Shown: in pieces, positions 27 through 64,000 of the stretch
Layout: every line of letters begins with the position of its first letter
How positions within the stretch are numbered: position 1 is the first letter of the stretch
DNA from: an alpha proteobacterium U9-1i
GTDB lineage: Bacteria; Pseudomonadota; Alphaproteobacteria; Caulobacterales; Aquidulcibacteraceae
NCBI GenBank assembly: GCA_000974665.1
Contig: BBSY01000003.1
Location: 1,329,001 to 1,393,000 of the forward strand
DNA length: 64,000 nt
Direction of reading: 5' to 3'
The notes under the pieces: generated by a model
What the model was told of the DNA's origin: nothing
Seen by the model: only the letters and a program-made list of their open reading frames with translations
Databases searched by the model: none
Made by a program: the position numbers and the translations under genes

Positions 27-158
27 CCCCCTCCTCTTGAGAGGAGGGGGTTAGGGGGTGGGGTGAAGCGCGACGTTTGCCGCGCAGGTGCAAGGCGCAA
101 ATCTCCAGAGGCCGGAGCATCACCCCGCCCCCTGCCCCCTCCCCTCGAGGGGAGGGGG
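27..158. repeat. Palindromic element A (short, gene-less copy)
   Basis: The left palindrome is at 27-50 (24 nt, 11 of 12 pairs) and the right palindrome at 135-158 is perfect, centred on CTCGAG. Inside them, a GGGGGTGGGG motif (54-63) faces a CCCCGCCCCC motif (123-132), so the whole 132 bp is an imperfect inverted repeat with a unique middle. It fills the gap between thrC and the next gene. No U-tract follows either hairpin, so it is not a standard terminator. Elements B, C and the composite at 60079-60610 have the same plan. Confidence 0.85.
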
Positions 159-21108: not shown

Positions 21109-21986
21109 CAATCCCCCCAACCAGCTTGTACTAATGACAAGGTCGCGATCACGGCCGTTTCGGCGCGCAAGATGCGCGGACCAAGTGATACCGGAATGAC
21201 GTAGGCGAGCGCACGCAACATGCGGCGCTCCTCTGGCGTGAAGCCGCCTTCGGGGCCAACGAGCACCGCAGCTCCCCCTCCTCTCGAGAGGAGGGGGTTG
21301 GGGGGTGGGGTGGGGCTCTGCGCATGTGATGAAGGCGGCTTCGGTGAAGCGCCTTCACCTTTGACGTCGCGCATCACCCCACCCCCTGCCCCCTCCTCTC
21401 GAGAGGAGGGGAAGAGCGCTTCAAGCATCGGCCGCGCTCGGCCATTCTCGCCACCCCATGGCGCGTGTGCATCATCACCGCGTTCGTCCGCAAAGATCAG
21501 CGGACGCGACGCATCCCAACCGTCAAGCATGCGCGCCAGCGACAGCGGCTCGCACACGTCCGGGGCATCAAAGCGTTCGGTCTGTTCGGCCGCTTCGCGG
21601 GCGATTGATTGCAAGCGATCCACGCGCACCGTTTCGGCGATCGTGCGTTGGGTGATCACAGGGCGAATGCGGCGGACGCCGAGTTCGGTCGCCTTCTCAA
21701 CAATCAGGTCCGTCGCGTGGCGCTTCACCGGCGCGAACAGCAGATCGAGATCGGGCACGGCGCGCGCGGCGCGCACGAACTCCGTCACGCTCACGCTCAT
21801 CCCGCGCTTTGTCTTCTCTGCGACGCGCGCGCGCCATTCGCCAGCGGTCGCGTTGAAAACACGAAGCGTGTCGCCAACGTCGAGCCGCAGCACAGTTCCG
21901 ACATGCCGCGCCTGCCCCTCGTCCAGCGCAATCATTGCGCCGACGGAAAGCGTTTGGTGCTCAATCAGGAGACGCGGATTGGCCAT
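21105..21986 (-). CDS. rsmE: 16S rRNA m3U1498 methyltransferase with in-frame repeat insertion
   Basis: RsmE methylates U1498 of 16S rRNA using SAM. The 293-residue product has the N-terminal PUA-like part (HVGTVLRLDVGDTLRVFNA), FAPVKRHATDLIVEKATELGVRRIRPV in the middle, and the SPOUT knot AVLVGPEGGFTPEE and SLGPRILRAETAVI at the end. It is about 45 residues longer than usual. The excess, roughly residues 192-238, is encoded by palindromic element B and is Pro/Gly/Ser-rich. The reading frame stays open because the element is 138 bp. The ATG at 21986 follows AAGGAACCC. Confidence 0.94.
   Translation of the reverse strand: MANPRLLIEHQTLSVGAMIALDEGQARHVGTVLRLDVGDTLRVFNATAGEWRARVAEKTKRGMSVSVTEFVRAARAVPDLDLLFAPVKRHATDLIVEKATELGVRRIRPVITQRTIAETVRVDRLQSIAREAAEQTERFDAPDVCEPLSLARMLDGWDASRPLIFADERGDDAHAPWGGENGRARPMLEALFPSSREEGAGGGVMRDVKGEGASPKPPSSHAQSPTPPPNPLLSRGGGAAVLVGPEGGFTPEERRMLRALAYVIPVSLGPRILRAETAVIATLSLVQAGWGDW
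21274..21411. repeat. Palindromic element B, inserted in rsmE
   Basis: Two palindromes centred on CTCGAG (21274-21297, 24 nt perfect; 21390-21411, 22 nt perfect) face each other through GGGGGGTGGGG and CACCCCACCCCC inner motifs, with about 55 bases of unique sequence between. The plan is that of elements A and C. The 138 bp encode 46 residues in frame within rsmE, just before the conserved VLVGPEGG motif. Confidence 0.88.
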
Positions 21987-48658: not shown

Positions 48659-48793
48659 CCCCCTCCCCTTGAGGGGAGGGGGCCGGGGGGCGGGGTGAAC
48701 CTCCGCACTTCGACGATTTCAAACTGCACGCCACGCGCACGCCAAACACCCGAGCTCACCCCACCCCCTGCCCCCTCCCCTCAAGGGGAGGGG
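48659..48793. repeat. Palindromic element C
   Basis: The left palindrome (48659-48682, CCCCCTCCCC-ttga-GGGGAGGGGG) and the right palindrome (48772-48793) face each other through GGGGGGCGGGG and CACCCCACCCCC inner motifs. The element is 135 bp and lies between the exported-protein gene and nadB. Its right arm ends three bases before the nadB ATG and provides the GGAGG that serves as Shine-Dalgarno. Confidence 0.87.
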
Positions 48794-57394: not shown

Positions 57395-60064
57395 TCAGTT
57401 TTTTGCGAGTGCGGCCTGGGCAGCGGCCAGACGGGCGATCGGGGTGCGGTACGGGCTGCAGGAAACGTAGTCGAGCCCGGCGGCTTCAAAGAAAGCCACC
57501 GACGCCGGGTCGCCGCCGTGTTCGCCACACACCCCAAGCTTCAGCCCTGCCCGCTGGACCCTGCCGCGTTCACAGGCCAGCCGAACCAGTTCGCCCACAC
57601 CGGCGGTGTCAATTGATACGAACGGGTCGATCGGTAAGACCCCGCGCTCGACATAAGTTCCCAGGAACCGGGCGGAATCGTCCCTGGAGAAGCCCATGGT
57701 GGTTTGGGTGAGGTCGTTGGTGCCGAAGGAAAAGAACTCAGCGGTTTCGGCGATCTCCCCCGCCAAGAGGGCGGCCCGCGGCAGCTCGATCATCGTCCCG
57801 ACCAGGTACTCGATCTTCACGCCGCGCTCGGTCATCACCTCGGTGGCGATGGCGTCAACGCGCACTTTCAGCAGGTCGAGCTCACGCTTGGCCAGCACGA
57901 ACGGGATCATGATTTCCGGGATCGGCGCCTCGCCGGTTTCGGCCAGCACATCGCACGCCGCCTCAAACACGGCGCGCGTCTGCATCTCGTAGATCTCGGG
58001 ATAGACGATCGCCAAACGGCAGCCGCGGAAACCGAGCATCGGATTCACTTCCGCGAGTTCCTTCGAGCGTTGGAGAAGCGCCTTCGCATCAAGGCCAGTC
58101 GCCTTGGCGACATCGGCGCAATCTTCTTCGGTGTGCGGCAGGAATTCATGCAAAGGCGGATCGAGATAGCGGATCGTCACCGGCCGATCACCCATGATGC
58201 GGAAGAGTTCGGCGAAATCCTTGCGCTGAAACGGACCGAGCTTCGCGAGTGCAGCGACGCGCCCCTCTTTCGTCTCCGACAAGATCATCTCGCGCACCGC
58301 GGCGATGCGGTTGGCGTCAAAAAACATATGCTCCGTGCGGCAGAGGCCGATGCCCTCCGCGCCAAACTTCACGGCCGTGCGCGCATCTTCCGGCGTCTCG
58401 GCGTTGGCGCGTACCCTCATGCGGCGCGCAGCGTCCGCCCATTCCATCAACGTCGCGAAATCGCCGGTGAGCTCGGGCTCCACCATTTCAGCGGCGCCGA
58501 ACAACACTTCGCCGGTTGAGCCGTCGACGGTGATGATCTCACCATACTTGATCACCCGGCCGATCGCGCGAAACACGCCCTCTTTCTCGTTGATGCGCAC
58601 ATCGCCCGCGCCGGACACGCACGGCCGCCCCATGCCGCGCGCAACGACGGCGGCGTGGCTGGTCATGCCGCCGCGCGCTGTGACGATGGCCCTCGCCGCG
58701 TGCATGCCGTGAATATCCTCGGGGCTCGTCTCCTCGCGCACAAGGATGACAGCCTCGCCCTTGTGCGCGAGCTGCTCGGCTTCGTCGCTGTCAAACACCA
58801 CCATGCCGGACGCCGCGCCTGGCGACGCGGGCAGGCCCTTGCAGATGAGATCGCGCTTGTAGTGCGGCGAGATCGTCGGGTGCAGCAATTGATCGAGCGC
58901 TGATGGATCGATGCGCAGCACCGCTTCGTGTTCGCTGATCAGCCCCTCACGCGCCATCTCGACGGCGATCTTCAGAGACGCCTTCGCCGTGCGCTTCCCG
59001 TTGCGCGTCTGCAGCATGTAAAGCGTGTTGCGCTCGATCGTGAACTCGATGTCCTGCATGTCGCGGTAATGGCGTTCGAGCTTGTCGAACACCGCCGCGA
59101 GCTCGCGATAGGCGTCCGGCATCGCCTCCTCGAGCGAGAGCCCCTCATCGCCCATCGCCTCGCGCGCTTTCTTCGTCAGGGGCTTCGGCGTGCGGATGCC
59201 GGCGACGACATCCTCGCCCTGCGCGTTGATCAGGTACTCGCCGTAATACAGACGCTCGCCGGTGGACGGATTGCGCGTGAACGCAACGCCGGTGGCGCTC
59301 GTCTCGCCCATATTGCCAAACACCATCGCCTGCACGTTGACGGCGGTGCCCCAGCTTTCGGGGATGTTGTTGTGCTTCCTGTAGAAGATCGCGCGATCGC
59401 TCATCCAACTTTGGAACACGGCGCCGACAGCGCCCCAAAGCTGCGCCTTCGCATCCTGCGGGAACGGCGCGCCAAGCTCACGCTCCACCGCGCGCTTGTA
59501 GTCGGCGACGACCTTCTCCCAATCCTCAGCGGTGAGATCGGTGTCGTAGCGATAATCGTTGCTCTCTTTGTAGGAGCCGAGAATTTCCTCGAACACGCCA
59601 TGCTCAAGCCCGAGCACGACATCGCAATACATCTGAATGAAGCGGCGATAGGAATCGTACGCAAAGCGCCGGTCGCCGGAGAGTTTCGCGAGCCCCTCAA
59701 CCGTTTCGTCGTTCAGGCCAAGGTTCAAAACCGTATCCATCATCCCCGGCATCGAAGCGCGCGCGCCGGAGCGCACGGAGACGAGCAGCGGATTGGACGG
59801 ATCGCCGAATGTCTTGCCAGCCTTCTTCTCGAGCGCTGCAAGCGCGCCTTCAAACTGCGCGTCGAGATCGGCGGGATAAGTACGGTTGTTGTGGTAATAG
59901 TGGACGCAGACCTCGGTCGTCACCGTGAAGCCCGGCGGAACGGGGAGCCCAAGCTTCGACATTTCCGCGAGGTTCGCGCCCTTGCCGCCCAGCAGCGTCT
60001 TCATCGACGCATCGCCCGCGCTTTCACCCGCGCCAAAACCGTAGACCCATTGTGTCGTCGACAT
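57395..60064 (-). CDS. ppdK: Pyruvate, phosphate dikinase
   Basis: PpdK interconverts pyruvate, ATP and phosphate with PEP, AMP and PPi, linking glycolysis and gluconeogenesis. The 889-residue length is normal. It shows GGKGANLAEMSKLGLPVPPGF at the N-terminus, the phosphohistidine motif ARGGMTSHAAVVARGMGRPCVSG near the middle, and GTNDLTQTTMGFSRDD and GVCGEHGGDP at the C-terminal barrel. It starts four bases from the DUF559 gene stop and is downstream of glyQS on the same strand. Confidence 0.96.
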   Translation of the reverse strand: MSTTQWVYGFGAGESAGDASMKTLLGGKGANLAEMSKLGLPVPPGFTVTTEVCVHYYHNNRTYPADLDAQFEGALAALEKKAGKTFGDPSNPLLVSVRSGARASMPGMMDTVLNLGLNDETVEGLAKLSGDRRFAYDSYRRFIQMYCDVVLGLEHGVFEEILGSYKESNDYRYDTDLTAEDWEKVVADYKRAVERELGAPFPQDAKAQLWGAVGAVFQSWMSDRAIFYRKHNNIPESWGTAVNVQAMVFGNMGETSATGVAFTRNPSTGERLYYGEYLINAQGEDVVAGIRTPKPLTKKAREAMGDEGLSLEEAMPDAYRELAAVFDKLERHYRDMQDIEFTIERNTLYMLQTRNGKRTAKASLKIAVEMAREGLISEHEAVLRIDPSALDQLLHPTISPHYKRDLICKGLPASPGAASGMVVFDSDEAEQLAHKGEAVILVREETSPEDIHGMHAARAIVTARGGMTSHAAVVARGMGRPCVSGAGDVRINEKEGVFRAIGRVIKYGEIITVDGSTGEVLFGAAEMVEPELTGDFATLMEWADAARRMRVRANAETPEDARTAVKFGAEGIGLCRTEHMFFDANRIAAVREMILSETKEGRVAALAKLGPFQRKDFAELFRIMGDRPVTIRYLDPPLHEFLPHTEEDCADVAKATGLDAKALLQRSKELAEVNPMLGFRGCRLAIVYPEIYEMQTRAVFEAACDVLAETGEAPIPEIMIPFVLAKRELDLLKVRVDAIATEVMTERGVKIEYLVGTMIELPRAALLAGEIAETAEFFSFGTNDLTQTTMGFSRDDSARFLGTYVERGVLPIDPFVSIDTAGVGELVRLACERGRVQRAGLKLGVCGEHGGDPASVAFFEAAGLDYVSCSPYRTPIARLAAAQAALAKN

Positions 60065-60067
60065 TGC

Positions 60068-60637
60068 TCAGCTCTCTTCCCCCGCCCCCTCGCGGGGCGG
60101 GGGCAGGGGGTGGGGGGCCTTCAAGCAGATGCACACCTGCTCGATCACCCAATCAGCCCTATGGGCCACATCCGCATTGGTCACACGCAACACGCGGAAC
60201 CCGGCGCGTTTGGCGCGCTCCTGCTTATCCGCATCAAACGCCGCAACCTCGGGACGATCATGAACTGCGCCGTCGAGTTCGATCAGCAAGCGCGCGCCGA
60301 ATTCGGCGAAATCGAAAACCCGATCGTCAATGGCGACTTGCTTGCGGAAGTGCGTATCCGGAATCTCGCGCAGCATGCGCCAGAACGCCTTCTCCGATGG
60401 CGTCATCTCGTGACGCAAGCGCTTTGCGCGCGCGTTCGCCTTTGTGAACTCGCGCTGACGCACCTGCCCCAAGCGCGCGCCCCAACCGATGGAGCCCTCT
60501 TGGCGCGACGCGCTTTCGGGCGGCGGAATGTCATCGCGCATATGGCCGGCGGGTGCGCTCAATCCTGATCGCCCCCCACCCCCTACCCCCGCCCCGCAAG
60601 GGGGCGGGGGATGATGCGTTGCACGTTCGCGCGTCAT
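60068..60637 (-). CDS. DUF559 endonuclease-like protein 1
   Basis: The core, about residues 62-170, fits DUF559: RAKRLRHEMTPSEKAFWRMLR, HFRKQVAIDDRVFDFAEFG, LLIELDGAVHD, GFRVLRVTNADV. The DF and ExDG residues suit a restriction-endonuclease-like/Vsr-like nuclease fold. The reading frame starts at an ATG overlapping the glyS stop (ATGA) and crosses both palindromic arms, giving Pro/Gly-rich ends. An internal ATG at 60541 is the alternative start (157 residues). It is closely similar to the DUF559 gene at 62751. Confidence 0.78.
   Translation of the reverse strand: MTRERATHHPPPPCGAGVGGGGRSGLSAPAGHMRDDIPPPESASRQEGSIGWGARLGQVRQREFTKANARAKRLRHEMTPSEKAFWRMLREIPDTHFRKQVAIDDRVFDFAEFGARLLIELDGAVHDRPEVAAFDADKQERAKRAGFRVLRVTNADVAHRADWVIEQVCICLKAPHPLPPPREGAGEES
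60079..60610. mobile_element. Composite palindromic element D enclosing a DUF559 gene
   Basis: The left arm has a palindrome (60079-60103) then AGGGGGTGGGG; the right arm (60571-60610) has CCCCACCCCC then a palindrome (60586-60610). This is the plan of elements A-C, with the same inner motifs, but the arms are about 450 bp apart and enclose the DUF559 nuclease gene. It lies between glyS and ppdK. I infer a mobile or formerly mobile unit; transposition is not shown and I did not find target-site duplications by eye. Confidence 0.6.
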
Positions 60638-62751
60638 CCCTCGATCTTCGAGAAATCCGCCACCGCGGACAATGCCTCGCGCAAGCGCGAGAGCAGCAAA
60701 AGTCTATTGCGGCGCAGGTTCGCGTCGTCTGCATTCACGAGCACGCCTTCGAAGAACGCATCGACCGGCGCGCGCAGGCCGGAGAGCGCTTTCATCGCCA
60801 CGGCGAAATCTTCGCGCTCAACCGCCGACCGCGCGGTCGGGATTGCGCTTTCGAGGGCGGCGTGCAACGCCTTCTCGGCGGCCTCGATGAGCTTCGACGC
60901 GTCGACGTCGCCCGTCGCCTCCGCCGCGCTCCACTTTCCCTTCTTCTCTTCGGCCGCGAGAATGTTGGCCGCGCGCTTGTAGCCGGCGAGCAAGTTCGCG
61001 CCGTCCTGCGATTTTAGGAACGCGTCGAGCGCCTCGACGCGTGCAACGATGCGGACGAGATCGTCGTCACCGAGTGCGAAGACGGCGTCGACGAGATCGT
61101 GGCGCTTGCCTTGGTCACGGAGCTGGACTTTGAGGCGATCGGCCAGGAAGGCGAGGAGGCTCGTTCGCGAGACCTGTTGATCGGCGCGCGCGACCTCGTT
61201 GGCCACATCCTTTTCCCAATTGTTCAGCCACGCGCCGCCGACGGCATGGATCAACGCCTCATCAAGCTCAAGCCTAACGCCAGCTTCCAAGGCGATCCGA
61301 ACAACACCCAAGGCCGCGCGCCGCAGCGCGTAAGGGTCACTGCTGCCCGTCGGCTTTTCGTCAATGACCCAAAACGATGCGAGCGTATCCAGCTTGTCCG
61401 CGAGCGCGAGCGTGATTGCGACTTTGTCTTCCGGCACGCGATCGTTGGGGCCGAGTGGGCGGTATTGATCTTCGATGGCGGCGGCGATGCTGGCGTTCGC
61501 GCCTTTCTCCAGCGCGTAGAGCTGACGCCCCACCTGCCCTTGCAGTTCTGGAAATTCTCCAACGGTCTCCGTCACCAAATCCATTTTGCAAAGTTCAGCC
61601 GCGCGCTTCACCTGCTCGACGTCCGCGCCCGTCACCGCGCACAATTCCGCCGCCAGCGCCTTCACGCGCTCGACCTTGTCCCACACGCTCCCGAGCTTCT
61701 GGTGGAAGACGATCTTCTCCAGCTTCGCTTTGCGCTCGTCGGTGTAGAGCGGCGTTTTCTTGTCCGTATCCCAGAAGAAGCGCGCGTCGTTCAAGCGCGC
61801 GCTCAACACGCGCGCATTGCCGGCGGCGATGGCTTTGCCGCCGTCTTTCGCTTCGACATTCGCGACAGTGATGAAATGCGGCGCGAGCTTTTGCGTTTTC
61901 GGATCGCGCACGGCGAAATACTTCTGGTGCGTGCGCATGGAGAGGCGGATCACCTCGCCGGGCAGATCGAGAAACGCCGGGTCCATGTCGCCCAGCAGCG
62001 TCACCGGCCATTCCACCAGCCCGCACACCTCTTCGAGCAGGCCGATATCGTCAACCAGCTCAAGCCCCTTCGCGGCGCAGAGCTTTTTGGCTTGGTCGAG
62101 GATGATCTGCTTGCGCTCGTCGCGCTCGATCAGCACTTTCGCGCCACGCAGCTTCGACGCGTGATCGCTCGCGCTCGAAACCGGCATCGCCTCCGGCGCA
62201 TGGAAACGATGGCCCCACGTCACGCCCTCGCTGCCCACGCCCTCGATCGCGATCTTCACGGCCTTGCCGTCGAAGATGCAGCAGATGTTGTGCAACGGGC
62301 GAACCCATTGCAAATCGCTCGATTGCGAGCGCATCGATTTCGGCCACGGAAACGCGCGCACGATCTCGGGCACGATCTCCTGCACGATCGCGCTCGTCTC
62401 GCGGCCCGCGCGCTCGATCTTAGCGACGTAGAACGCGCCCTTCTTGTCCTCAACGATCTGCGCCTGATCGATGGAGCTGAGGCCCGCGCTTTTCAGGAAC
62501 CCCTGCACCGCTTGATCGGGCGAGCCGACGCGCGGGCCTTTCTTTTCTTCGTTCACGTCCGCGGCCTTCGCCGGCAGGTCGTCGATCACCGCGCCAATGC
62601 GGCGCGGGCTGGAAAACGTCTTGATCGCCTTCGGCTCAAGTCCCGCACCCCTGAGCTTCTCACCCAAAGCCCGCGCCAAATCTTCCTCCCCGCGCTTTTG
62701 CATGCGCGCGGGAATTTCCTCGCTGAAAAACTCCAGAAGCAATTGCGGCAT
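60634..62751 (-). CDS. glyS: Glycine-tRNA ligase beta subunit
   Basis: GlyS is the beta subunit of the alpha2-beta2 bacterial glycyl-tRNA synthetase. The 705-residue product begins [18 protein letters not shown] and has RIGAVIDDLP near residue 51 and YRPLGPNDRVPEDKVAITLALADKLDTL near 455, followed by the anticodon-binding part. The ATG shares one base with the DUF559-2 stop (TAATG). The alpha subunit is at the window end. Confidence 0.96.
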   Translation of the reverse strand: MPQLLLEFFSEEIPARMQKRGEEDLARALGEKLRGAGLEPKAIKTFSSPRRIGAVIDDLPAKAADVNEEKKGPRVGSPDQAVQGFLKSAGLSSIDQAQIVEDKKGAFYVAKIERAGRETSAIVQEIVPEIVRAFPWPKSMRSQSSDLQWVRPLHNICCIFDGKAVKIAIEGVGSEGVTWGHRFHAPEAMPVSSASDHASKLRGAKVLIERDERKQIILDQAKKLCAAKGLELVDDIGLLEEVCGLVEWPVTLLGDMDPAFLDLPGEVIRLSMRTHQKYFAVRDPKTQKLAPHFITVANVEAKDGGKAIAAGNARVLSARLNDARFFWDTDKKTPLYTDERKAKLEKIVFHQKLGSVWDKVERVKALAAELCAVTGADVEQVKRAAELCKMDLVTETVGEFPELQGQVGRQLYALEKGANASIAAAIEDQYRPLGPNDRVPEDKVAITLALADKLDTLASFWVIDEKPTGSSDPYALRRAALGVVRIALEAGVRLELDEALIHAVGGAWLNNWEKDVANEVARADQQVSRTSLLAFLADRLKVQLRDQGKRHDLVDAVFALGDDDLVRIVARVEALDAFLKSQDGANLLAGYKRAANILAAEEKKGKWSAAEATGDVDASKLIEAAEKALHAALESAIPTARSAVEREDFAVAMKALSGLRAPVDAFFEGVLVNADDANLRRNRLLLLSRLREALSAVADFSKIEG

Positions 62752-63524
62752 TAGCTCCCCCGCTCCCCCTCAATGGGGGAGCTGTCAGCGCGTAGCGCTG
62801 ACTGAGGGGGCGTGGCCCGCGACCCTTCGGGCTTAGCCTCTTGAGGCTCCCCCGCAACGCTGGCGCGCGCACCCCCTCCGCCGCTCCGCGGCGCCTCCCC
62901 CATCGAGGGGGAGGCTATCTGCGCGTTCCTCTCCCGGATTTGCGCGTCATGTAGATTGCGCCAACGAAGCATCCGCGCGTAAGCGCTCGTCTCGCTCGCC
63001 GCATTGTGGATCGTTTCCCAGACGCCTTGGCGTTCACTGATCGCTTCGGTGTTCCAGAAGCGCAGCACCCGATACCCCTCGCGCTCCAACCAGGCGGTGC
63101 GCAGCGCGTCATGTTCCGATTGCGCAAGCGTTGCGTGTTGGGCGCCATCGACTTCGATTACAAGGCGCGCGGGATGCGAGACAAAATCCAGGATCGCGCT
63201 GCCGAAAGCAGCTTGGCGGCGCCAGCTGAGCGCCACGAGCTCGCCTTCATGCAGCAAACGCCACATGGCCTTCTCGTGCGGCGTCATCTCCGAGCGCATC
63301 GCTTTGGCGCGCGCACGGAGCCACTCGCGTGGGCTCATGCGAGCGCCCCGCTCCTCCTCGATGGAGGAGCTGTCAGCGCGCAGCGATGACTGAGGAGGTG
63401 AGGCCCGCGATTGTTGGGGGTGAGCCTCGTGAGGCTGCACTTCGCCGCCGGCGCGCGCACCTCCTCCGCCGCTCCGCGGTGCCTCCTCCATCGAGGAGGA
63501 GGCTGGAGCTTTATATTGAATCAT
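62751..63524 (-). CDS. DUF559 endonuclease-like protein 2, between glyQ and glyS
   Basis: The core, about residues 63-190, fits DUF559: [56 protein letters not shown]. It is a paralogue of DUF559-1. The ATG at 63524 overlaps the glyQ stop (ATGA) with GGAG eight bases before it; an ATG at 63338 (MSPREWL) would start just before the core. The frame runs through two copies of the 155-bp repeat, so the N- and C-terminal tails resemble each other. It ends with a TAATG overlap into glyS. Confidence 0.76.
62762..62916. repeat. 155-bp repeat E1
   Basis: E1 has a 5' palindrome (CTCCCCCTCAATGGGGGAG), internal hairpins and a 3' end containing CCGCTCCGCGG and GCCTCCCCCATCGAGG. It is 155 bp, the same length and orientation as E2, with 26 differences by hand count (about 83% identity). 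Many differences are paired, so the hairpin stems are kept. It encodes the C-terminal tail of DUF559-2. Confidence 0.87.
63350..63504. repeat. 155-bp repeat E2
   Basis: E2 is the partner of E1, with palindrome CTCCTCCTCGATGGAGGAG and the same internal layout (CTGTCAGCGCG, CGCGCACCTCCTCCG, CCGCTCCGCGG). It lies just upstream of the DUF559-2 core and encodes its N-terminal extension in the same frame. With E1 it brackets the 433 bp that code for the nuclease core. Confidence 0.87.
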
Positions 63525-64000
63525 TGCGCAAGCTCCGAATCTTCCCACGCTTTCGCACACCCCTTCGCCAAATCACGCACCCGGGCGATGAAGCTCTGAC
63601 GTTCTGTCGGGCTGACGACGCCGCGGGCGTCGAGCAAATTGAACAAGTGCGAGGCCTTCAGCGTGTAATCGAACGCCGGCAGCACCGCGCCCGCTTCGAG
63701 CAAGCGCTTCGCCGTCGCTTCCGCATCGCCAAACCAACGCAGGTTCATCTCGGGATCGCTGAGTTCGAAATTGAAGCGCGATTGCTGCTTCTCGTTTTCG
63801 AGGAACACGTCGCCGTACTTCAGCGGCGTGGCGCTGTCGGGATCGTTGAACGGCAGATCGTACACGCGATCGACGCCGAACACGTACATCGCCAAGCGCT
63901 CAAGCCCATACGTGAGCTCACCGCTCACCGGGCGCACGTCCAAGCCGCCGACTTGTTGGAAGTAGGTGTATTGCGACACCTCCATGCCGTCGCACCACAC
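63521..64000 (-). CDS. glyQ: Glycine-tRNA ligase alpha subunit (5' end outside the window)
   Basis: GlyQ is the catalytic alpha subunit of glycyl-tRNA synthetase. The last 159 residues are visible, starting in [15 protein letters not shown] and with [19 protein letters not shown] and [26 protein letters not shown], which are family hallmarks. The gene continues beyond 64000. Its stop overlaps the DUF559-2 ATG as ATGA. In related genomes glyQ and glyS are close neighbours, so the DUF559 gene is an interruption. Confidence 0.95.

Follow-up and report, generated by a model that had tools for sequence, protein, structure and literature searches.

DUF559 genes between inverted hairpin ends: a probable mobile element of Pseudomonadota and its gene-less relatives

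The 64,000 nucleotides of the alphaproteobacterium U9-1i considered here (contig BBSY01000003.1, positions 1,329,001 to 1,393,000; "the window" means this whole stretch) carry two genes of the DUF559 family amid hairpin-forming palindromic repeats, and one of these genes forms, with the inverted palindromic ends that surround it, a compact unit designated element D. That gene and ends constitute one unit is well supported: the arrangement is found at several sites, and a single site may hold, in related genomes, the full element, a gene-less pair of ends (a solo) or no element at all. The explanation that we favour, and regard as probable, is that the unit is a mobile element whose enzyme, the DUF559 protein, drives its own spread and that of the solos. 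The role assigned to the protein rests on its nuclease fold, on the finding of no other cargo in the copies seen, on the selection acting on its sequence and on gene dosage. An earlier reading of the window, made from the sequence alone, had described DUF559 genes bracketed by palindromes and proposed a mobile system akin to that of repetitive extragenic palindromes (REPs) and their RAYT transposases; the observation is confirmed and the interpretation supported, with the DUF559 protein as the presumptive mover.

The relevant features of the window are the following:

60068..60637, minus strand: DUF559 gene of element D, 189 aa, with the domain at 60128-60442
60079..60103: outer palindrome of element D, 10-bp stem and 5-nt loop, with the inward tail AGGGGGTGGGGGGC
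60586..60610: outer palindrome at the other end of element D, with the tail AGGGGGTGGGGGGC inverted
60079-60610: element D as a whole, a DUF559 gene between inverted palindromic ends
62751..63524, minus strand: second DUF559 gene, a frame of 257 aa, with the domain at 63003-63317
62758..62916: E1, solo paired-palindrome element, palindromes at 62762-62782 and 62893-62915
63346..63504: E2, solo paired-palindrome element, palindromes at 63350-63370 and 63481-63503
27..158: element A, gene-less solo
21274..21411: element B, gene-less solo
48659..48793: element C, gene-less solo

Both proteins match PF04480 (DUF559) in a Pfam scan, with E values of 2.3e-21 and 4.9e-30, so that two paralogous members of the family do lie within one 3.5-kb region as claimed from the sequence alone; neither matches PF01797 (the Y1/HUH family of RAYT) or PF03852 (Vsr) up to an E value of 1 in the same scan. 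The repeats are also where that reading had placed them. The inverted arms of element D (60075-60140 and 60549-60614) span 66 nt with a complementarity of 80%, and E1 and E2 are 159-nt direct repeats of 84% identity, each of them itself an inverted pair of palindromes. Elements A, B and C had been described as built like the arms of element D, and the arms of all four indeed follow a common plan, a palindrome with a G-rich tail inward of it, with local-alignment scores of 24, 29 and 30 for A, B and C and of 35 for D. Twelve of the 16 palindromes in the window with a stem of at least 7 and C- or G-rich runs are the outer palindromes of elements A to E2. The further claim that hairpin repeats enclose each of the two genes stands for element D and falls for the second gene, which is flanked by two separate solos in direct orientation; a relative (L105) carries a gene of this second type with the downstream solo alone. 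Element D is thus the sole gene of the window lying inside one pair of ends.

To score matched inverted flanks, each 450-bp upstream flank was aligned locally to the reverse-complemented 450-bp downstream flank, and loci scoring at least 20 were counted as passing. Flanks were taken from the domain ends for DUF559 and from near the ends of control open reading frames (ORFs), which came from a simple ORF caller, the set from the window's own genome being without 25 more ORFs near DUF559; loci with short flanks were dropped (in the window's family 2 of 29 DUF559 and 4 of 10 RAYT loci, 2 of 30 Vsr loci, and 3 of 27 and 5 of 80 in the Mesorhizobium Pfam-model and named sets). The window's genome holds 10 DUF559 genes, seven of which pass, versus one of 372 control ORFs, and this single passing control sits between two solos. 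Element D scores 36.5 and the second window gene 22.0, the latter through the palindromes of E1 and E2. For seven of the 10 genes the best match of the left flank is the gene's own right flank, and trans pairs reach 20 in three of 90 cases. Two copies in this genome call for separate mention: L007 (G000:C2:1952152) has 41-nt inverted arms at 98% and appears frameshifted in its N-terminal part, and the tenth copy, L010 (G000:C4:172665-172967), without the ExDGxxH motif and with no palindromes in the flanks read, is likely a relic.

Wider samples give pass rates of 20/27 for DUF559 loci of the window's family, 13/30 at the level of the phylum (the best-scoring locus each from 30 of 116 DUF559-positive genomes) and 12/24 for Mesorhizobium loci found by the Pfam model. 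A named set, mostly from Mesorhizobium, Bradyrhizobium and Rhizobium, passes at 46 of 75 DUF559 loci versus one of 411 control ORFs from the same loci; these 75 loci are not independent, as 13 Mesorhizobium loci share one common site, and the genome scan behind them used a single Mesorhizobium protein query and leans to Rhizobiales. RAYT genes, the positive control, pass at all six scorable loci of the 10 fetched from the family, and true Vsr genes, which have the same fold, have matching inverted flanks at none of 28 loci. The enrichment of palindromes at DUF559 over control genes, suggested earlier as a check, is therefore evident in both controlled sets. Chance in GC-rich DNA was considered and rejected, given the two ORF controls and the rarity of reversed patterns, and transcription terminators were rejected as well because no T run was seen by eye and the paired inverted layout encloses a gene.

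The surroundings of the two window genes allow the same sites to be compared between genomes. Both genes lie on the minus strand among the following neighbours, whose names are our assumption:

57395..60064, minus strand: presumably a ppdK-like gene (pyruvate phosphate dikinase), judged by its sequence; flank in the orthologous-site test
60634..62751, minus strand: presumably a glyS-like gene (glycyl-tRNA synthetase beta chain), likewise judged by its sequence; flank in the orthologous-site test
63521..64000, minus strand: presumably a glyQ-like gene, cut by the window end

The comparison covered 21 genomes, namely the window and 20 of 27 genus relatives with a glyS match. The gap between glyS and ppdK holds a full DUF559 element in eight of them, an internally deleted one in L103, a solo of 142-184 bp in four (L091, L093, L097 and L099) and no element in eight, of which seven gaps measure 5-66 bp (L106 with one short hairpin) and that of L100 measures 147 bp and contains an unrelated repeat. 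Between glyQ and glyS, DUF559 is present in seven genomes, four with the second window type and three with the D type, while one genome (L093) has a single palindrome, eight are empty (-5 to 11 bp) and five hold other sequence. Different DUF559 lineages and solos have thus occupied both gaps, which stand empty in other genomes, and the presence and absence at orthologous sites that the sequence-only reading had proposed to look for is found as full, deleted, solo and empty states. The other sequence in the glyQ|glyS gap occurs in L090 (a DUF2314 gene), L096, L100, L101 and L107, and this gap may be a general insertion spot.

In element D, the start codon of the DUF559 gene shares ATGA with the glyS stop, and both palindromic ends lie within its frame; the second frame opens at an ATGA overlap with the glyQ stop and passes through E2 and E1. 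The same holds across both gaps: the start codon overlaps the upstream stop in 15 of 15 DUF559 copies (12 ATGA, two GTGA and one TTGA), and in all 15 the frame is open from the overlap through the DUF559 motif, the upstream end, where present, being a hairpin in frame. Given the overlapping start codon and a frame that runs through the hairpin end, the gene appears, from its sequence, to be expressed from the host operon in the window's genus, and the proline- and glycine-rich ends of these DUF559 proteins arise because the frame takes in the hairpin end. As a separate observation, the glyS genes of some relatives (for example, G051, G043 and G046) match the window GlyS with interruptions close to residues 417 and 496-530; a number of the relatives' glyS frames are much longer, as if carrying in-frame inserted segments.

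A second body of evidence comes from genomes placed in the genus Mesorhizobium, since G110 and Mesorhizobium sp. B2-4-15 have identical DUF559 proteins. One DUF559 subtype (69-100% identity to the query, L186-L211) is found here in unrelated contexts, with clean matching ends on both sides of the gene at five of the 14 loci read (L188, L202, L203, L206 and L210); elsewhere the ends are decayed or accompanied by additional solos, and at L199 they are missing. The end is designed as CCTTCTCCC-loop-GGGAGAAGG, followed by TGG, an inner hairpin and then GGATGAGGGGTG, all mirrored at the other side. Among 54 distinct elements of this one design, 33 are solos of 141-224 bp and 21 are full copies of 545-587 bp, with no intermediate sizes. 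Every one of the 21 full copies contains an open DUF559 frame, at least 126 aa long, a count that is not an unbiased census because the loci were mostly fetched via DUF559 or via a DUF559-occupied site.

One intergenic Mesorhizobium site, readable in 22 of 30 loci, holds DUF559 in 12, seven of which retain both intact ends; in two it holds a same-family solo, in three remnants and in five solos of other palindrome families. These last (L276, L286, L268, L270 and L289) belong to at least two other families, so that one site has been reused by different families. A second site (L210), with 12 of 30 loci read by eye, likewise occurs in full, solo and decayed states. The protein is under selection, the ratio of nonsynonymous to synonymous substitution rates (dN/dS) being 0.06-0.16 among seven Mesorhizobium loci (20 of 21 pairs computable; L202 and L206 represent one site), a rough figure because dS is mostly above 1.

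The ends themselves bear marks of conserved pairing. They were collected by a pattern demanding the outer palindrome and GGATGAGGGG, so that in an alignment of 50 ends the outer palindrome and tail are constant partly by construction; the inner hairpin lay outside the pattern. Its stem reaches at least five in 34 of 42 distinct sequences versus 183 of 2100 shuffles that preserve base composition alone, and its sequence varies while the pairing is kept. In the direction from the terminus inward, the three-base inner loops read GNA in 18 of 19 cases and TNC in none, and at 48 other DUF559 loci, a few of which are also from Mesorhizobium (for example, L138), they are GNA in 28 and TNC in seven of 44. 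GNA loops are unusually stable in DNA, and their preference for one strand suggests that the ends work in single-stranded form. Single-stranded folding predictions give two hairpins for both Mesorhizobium ends tested (z -3.9 and -4.3); for the ends of element D, one lies clearly below its shuffles (z -3.7) and the other is no better than its shuffles (z -1.0).

With respect to the protein, an AlphaFold model of the second window DUF559 (mean predicted local distance difference test score 90.9) retrieves by Foldseek, first among PDB entries, 3hrl, a gonococcal DUF559 protein, followed by the I-Bth0305I catalytic domain (3r3p, from a homing endonuclease; E 3.2e-5, template modelling score 0.81 by target), an entry that a sequence profile also finds (E 1.7e-5). 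Vsr (1cw0) follows at E 5.4e-3, ranked below mitochondrial ribosomal proteins, and the Vsr-like fold named in the sequence-only reading is thereby borne out. Weak PDB profile matches at E about 0.6 were set aside as chance. Five residues (E23, D52, E63, D65 and H69 in A4 numbering) are invariant in 30 DUF559 sequences. As judged from this sequence and model evidence, the DUF559 domain is related to the Vsr-like (EDxHD) catalytic domain of homing endonucleases; the window's genome has a separate Vsr gene (G000:C5:19518-19742). YcjD, the E. coli member of DUF559, was linked to Vsr earlier (PMC1189080), and VsrA of Caulobacter (CCNA_02930), which has a DUF559 domain, is required for the SOS response of mutants in the methyltransferase gene scmA (PMC12907096). 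This need for VsrA indicates that the DUF559 family includes a protein able to act on cellular DNA.

The number of repeats also tends to follow the gene. Across 60 genomes of the window's family, the palindrome counted as CTCCNCC-N3-6-GGNGGAG correlates with the number of DUF559 genes at a Spearman coefficient of 0.59, and at 0.66 within the genus (n=30), values that take no account of phylogeny; with RAYT count partialled out, the coefficients are 0.46 and 0.56, and the family value rises to 0.73 once genus g8 is dropped post hoc. A reversed control pattern gives 0.02 in the family and 0.27, not significant, in the genus, and occurs in 0-9 copies versus up to 107 real palindromes per family genome. 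The 13 family genomes without DUF559 average 4.5 copies and the 21 with four or more average 47. In Mesorhizobium, 139 of 146 genomes carry DUF559, and CCTTCTCCC-N2-7-GGGAGAAGG is found up to 114 times per genome, its reversed control being absent from 145 of the 146. The median is 37 copies in the 68 genomes with the matching DUF559 subtype (best E below 1e-40, a cut chosen by the analyst) versus 18 in the 78 without it (p 9e-7), and the correlation with the total DUF559 number is just 0.24. The link between DUF559 and palindromes is thus statistical and the dosage loose, which is compatible with solos outliving the gene; of the earlier expectation that copy number depends on DUF559, the rise with the gene holds and strict dependence does not.

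DUF559 genes of more distant bacteria are likewise accompanied by palindromes. At L363 of Neisseria gonorrhoeae, whose protein is that of 3hrl, the perfect palindrome CTCTCTCCC..GGGAGAGAG with a second hairpin stands twice downstream of the gene, and an imperfect copy of the palindrome lies upstream. E. coli ycjD, situated between sapF and fabI, has palindromic repeats downstream and a perfect hairpin (TCACCTCATTCTGACA...) just before it (L183, L184 and L185); no matched end pair was seen around it by eye. The repeat beside ycjD is a palindrome with the tail GTTAGGGTGAGGGG, as at the Rhizobium DUF559 loci L255 and L261, and is probably box C. It occurs at one place or more in 5375 of 5426 E. 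coli genomes (median 17, not split by ycjD), and at least 80% of the ycjD region is present in 3363 of the same 5426. In E. coli, then, the repeat is seen in association with DUF559, and no dependence on the gene is apparent. Two opened genomes without the ycjD region have an efflux operon in its place, a location described for eefRABCD (PMC12817139). It should be noted that the E. coli control genome gave no PF04480 match, although ycjD of MG1655 is annotated as DUF559.

Taken as a mechanism, the favoured explanation would run as follows. Element D would be an autonomous member of a class of small (about 0.5-0.6 kb) mobile elements, each made up of two inverted ends and one DUF559 gene, and A, B, C, E1 and E2 would be its non-autonomous, gene-less relatives. 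As single-stranded DNA, each end would fold into the outer palindrome, to which many families would add an inner GNA-loop hairpin; the DUF559 nuclease would recognise the folded end, its own or, in trans, that of a solo, and nick or cut beside the fold, and the element would then be copied or moved to another intergenic site. Alternatively, repair through the shared ends, with a full copy as template, could turn a solo into a full element. More tentatively, and with a likelihood that we place a little short of even, DUF559 could be the transposase of hairpin-ended elements widespread in Pseudomonadota, acting on folded single-stranded ends with GNA loops, and thereby the mobiliser so far lacking for orphan palindromic repeats, among them the ycjD-linked, box C-like repeat of E. 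coli, the CCTTCTCCC repeat of Mesorhizobium and perhaps RIME, CIR or CGTC repeats.

Several observations weigh against the explanation, besides the way in which the 21 full copies were gathered and the neglect of phylogeny in the copy-number correlations. No target-site duplication was found among the Mesorhizobium elements, the counts for lengths of 2-9 nt, with copies taken in both orientations, lying within about 1.5 standard deviations of expectation at every length. Nor was recent movement seen, the closest pair met within the window's genome being E1 and E2 at 84%, and dS between Mesorhizobium copies mostly exceeds 1. Flank pairs in trans also pass, in 58 of 702 cases in the family and 83 of 870 in the phylum sample, since palindromes are alike within a clade. 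Depending on the sample, a quarter to over half of DUF559 genes are without matched flanks (17/30 in the phylum, 12/24 in the Mesorhizobium Pfam-model set and 29/75 in the named set), as is expected of decayed copies and equally of a host-gene role. Palindromes are found apart from the gene: G011 is without DUF559 yet has 27, G032 lacks DUF559 yet holds a solo at the orthologous gap, G375 has 34 Mesorhizobium palindromes without any DUF559, 15 of the 78 subtype-free Mesorhizobium genomes hold at least 40 copies, and in E. coli the repeat persists where the ycjD region is absent (5375 repeat-positive versus 3363 ycjD-positive genomes). Conversely, four g8 genomes with 3-6 DUF559 genes have only 0-3 palindromes of the counted type, and four of 68 subtype carriers hold 10 copies or fewer. 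The RAYT count, too, correlates with palindromes (partial 0.32, p 0.014).

Among the other explanations, the one that survives best, though we hold it unlikely, casts DUF559 as a free-standing homing endonuclease: it would turn solos, or empty sites, into full copies with a full copy as repair template, and the solos would owe their spread to another enzyme. I-Bth0305I is the closest relative of known function, by profile as well as by fold, related genomes carry full or solo copies at the same site, and solos would supply homologous ends for repair; on the other hand, spread to non-homologous sites and the rise of palindrome number with DUF559 number are left unexplained, and no site-specific target could be defined. 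A homing-like conversion of solos agrees with the kinship to homing endonucleases and with the sharing of sites, and it may belong to one process together with the movement of the element.

Less probable is a role as a host repair nuclease, resembling very-short-patch repair as proposed for VsrA, the palindromes then adjoining the gene because both use the same tolerated intergenic places or because the nuclease acts on hairpins or mismatches. The requirement for Caulobacter VsrA in the SOS response of scmA mutants (PMC12907096) and the many DUF559 genes without matched flanks speak for it, but inverted arms that pair across the gene, the narrow size classes and the several contexts do not, and flanks match in 0 of 28 Vsr loci and in 2 of 783 control ORFs.

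Least probable of all is that RAYT (Y1/HUH) transposases move the palindromes with DUF559 genes as passengers: PF01797 is present in 27 of 60 family genomes, its count correlates with palindromes at a rho of 0.50, and some 3.3 kb separate the only PF01797 match of the window's genome (C2:1064003-1064320) from a DUF559 copy (C2:1060412), but the inverted palindromes at all six scorable RAYT loci include four of the GCCGGC type and none of the CTCC/CCCC type of DUF559 elements, the RAYT partial falls to 0.10 within the genus where that of DUF559 stays at 0.56, and G033, G031 and G034, with no RAYT, have 30, 53 and 16 palindromes. The data do not call for RAYTs.

REP-like palindromes are common in bacterial genomes, and another abundant hairpin group is now tied to DUF559. 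The association offers a testable function for DUF559 (10 genes in the window's genome, and ycjD in E. coli K-12), a testable mover for the repeats, and a reading of DUF559 proteins other than as Vsr-like repair enzymes. A literature search that covered few subscription papers found, in the text available, nothing that links DUF559 with palindromic repeats.

Compared with known systems, the elements most resemble REPtrons and REPINs, in that a single nuclease gene lies between inverted hairpin repeats, gene-less pairs of which occur elsewhere, locations are intergenic and copy number tends to follow the gene. Inverted hairpin flanks that also occur without the gene are a feature of RAYT loci found here as well, and the REP/RAYT-like arrangement proposed from the sequence alone therefore stands, whereas the enzyme is not a Y1/HUH transposase and RAYT loci carry other palindromes. 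Unlike REPtrons, these elements encode a protein of the DUF559/Vsr fold instead of Y1 HUH, have different palindromes and include gene-carrying copies at several sites. No conserved GTAG tag was found at the palindrome foot in the alignment of 50 Mesorhizobium ends collected by pattern, and with a different enzyme and no such tag the elements are not members of the REP/RAYT group, though they would work alike. Terminal inverted repeats with gene-carrying and gene-less copies (21 full and 33 solo) are shared with insertion sequences and miniature inverted-repeat transposable elements.

RAYTs have been proposed as movers of GTAG-type REPs, and TIRtrons are RAYT-like genes in long terminal inverted repeats; REPs of the CGTC type, mainly alphaproteobacterial hairpin families with an 8-9-bp stem starting with AT, a 4-5-nt loop and a CCA tail, "apparently lack a dedicated transposase", according to PMC3733652. 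Some inner hairpins (TCGGCGC type) show the CGTC-hairpin-CCA layout when read toward the terminus, but the inner stems here start with TC, CC or GC, and their loops are mostly of 3-4 nt. RIME (Rhizobium-specific intergenic mosaic elements) and CIR are intergenic alphaproteobacterial repeats for which the available parts of PMC2573895, PMC2245857 and PMC2229807 name no mobiliser; CIR of Caulobacter, described there as some 110 bp long, with a pair of long inverted arms and with GANTC sites, and RIME resemble the present elements by description only. On the side of the enzyme, I-Bth0305I (3r3p) has the same catalytic fold as DUF559 and is listed as a mobile-intron protein, and Vsr (1cw0), also of the same fold, is a repair enzyme whose 28 loci are without hairpin ends. 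If DUF559 is indeed the mover, these elements would represent a new class of mobile DNA, with an enzyme unrelated to those of the RAYT/IS200, DDE and recombinase systems.

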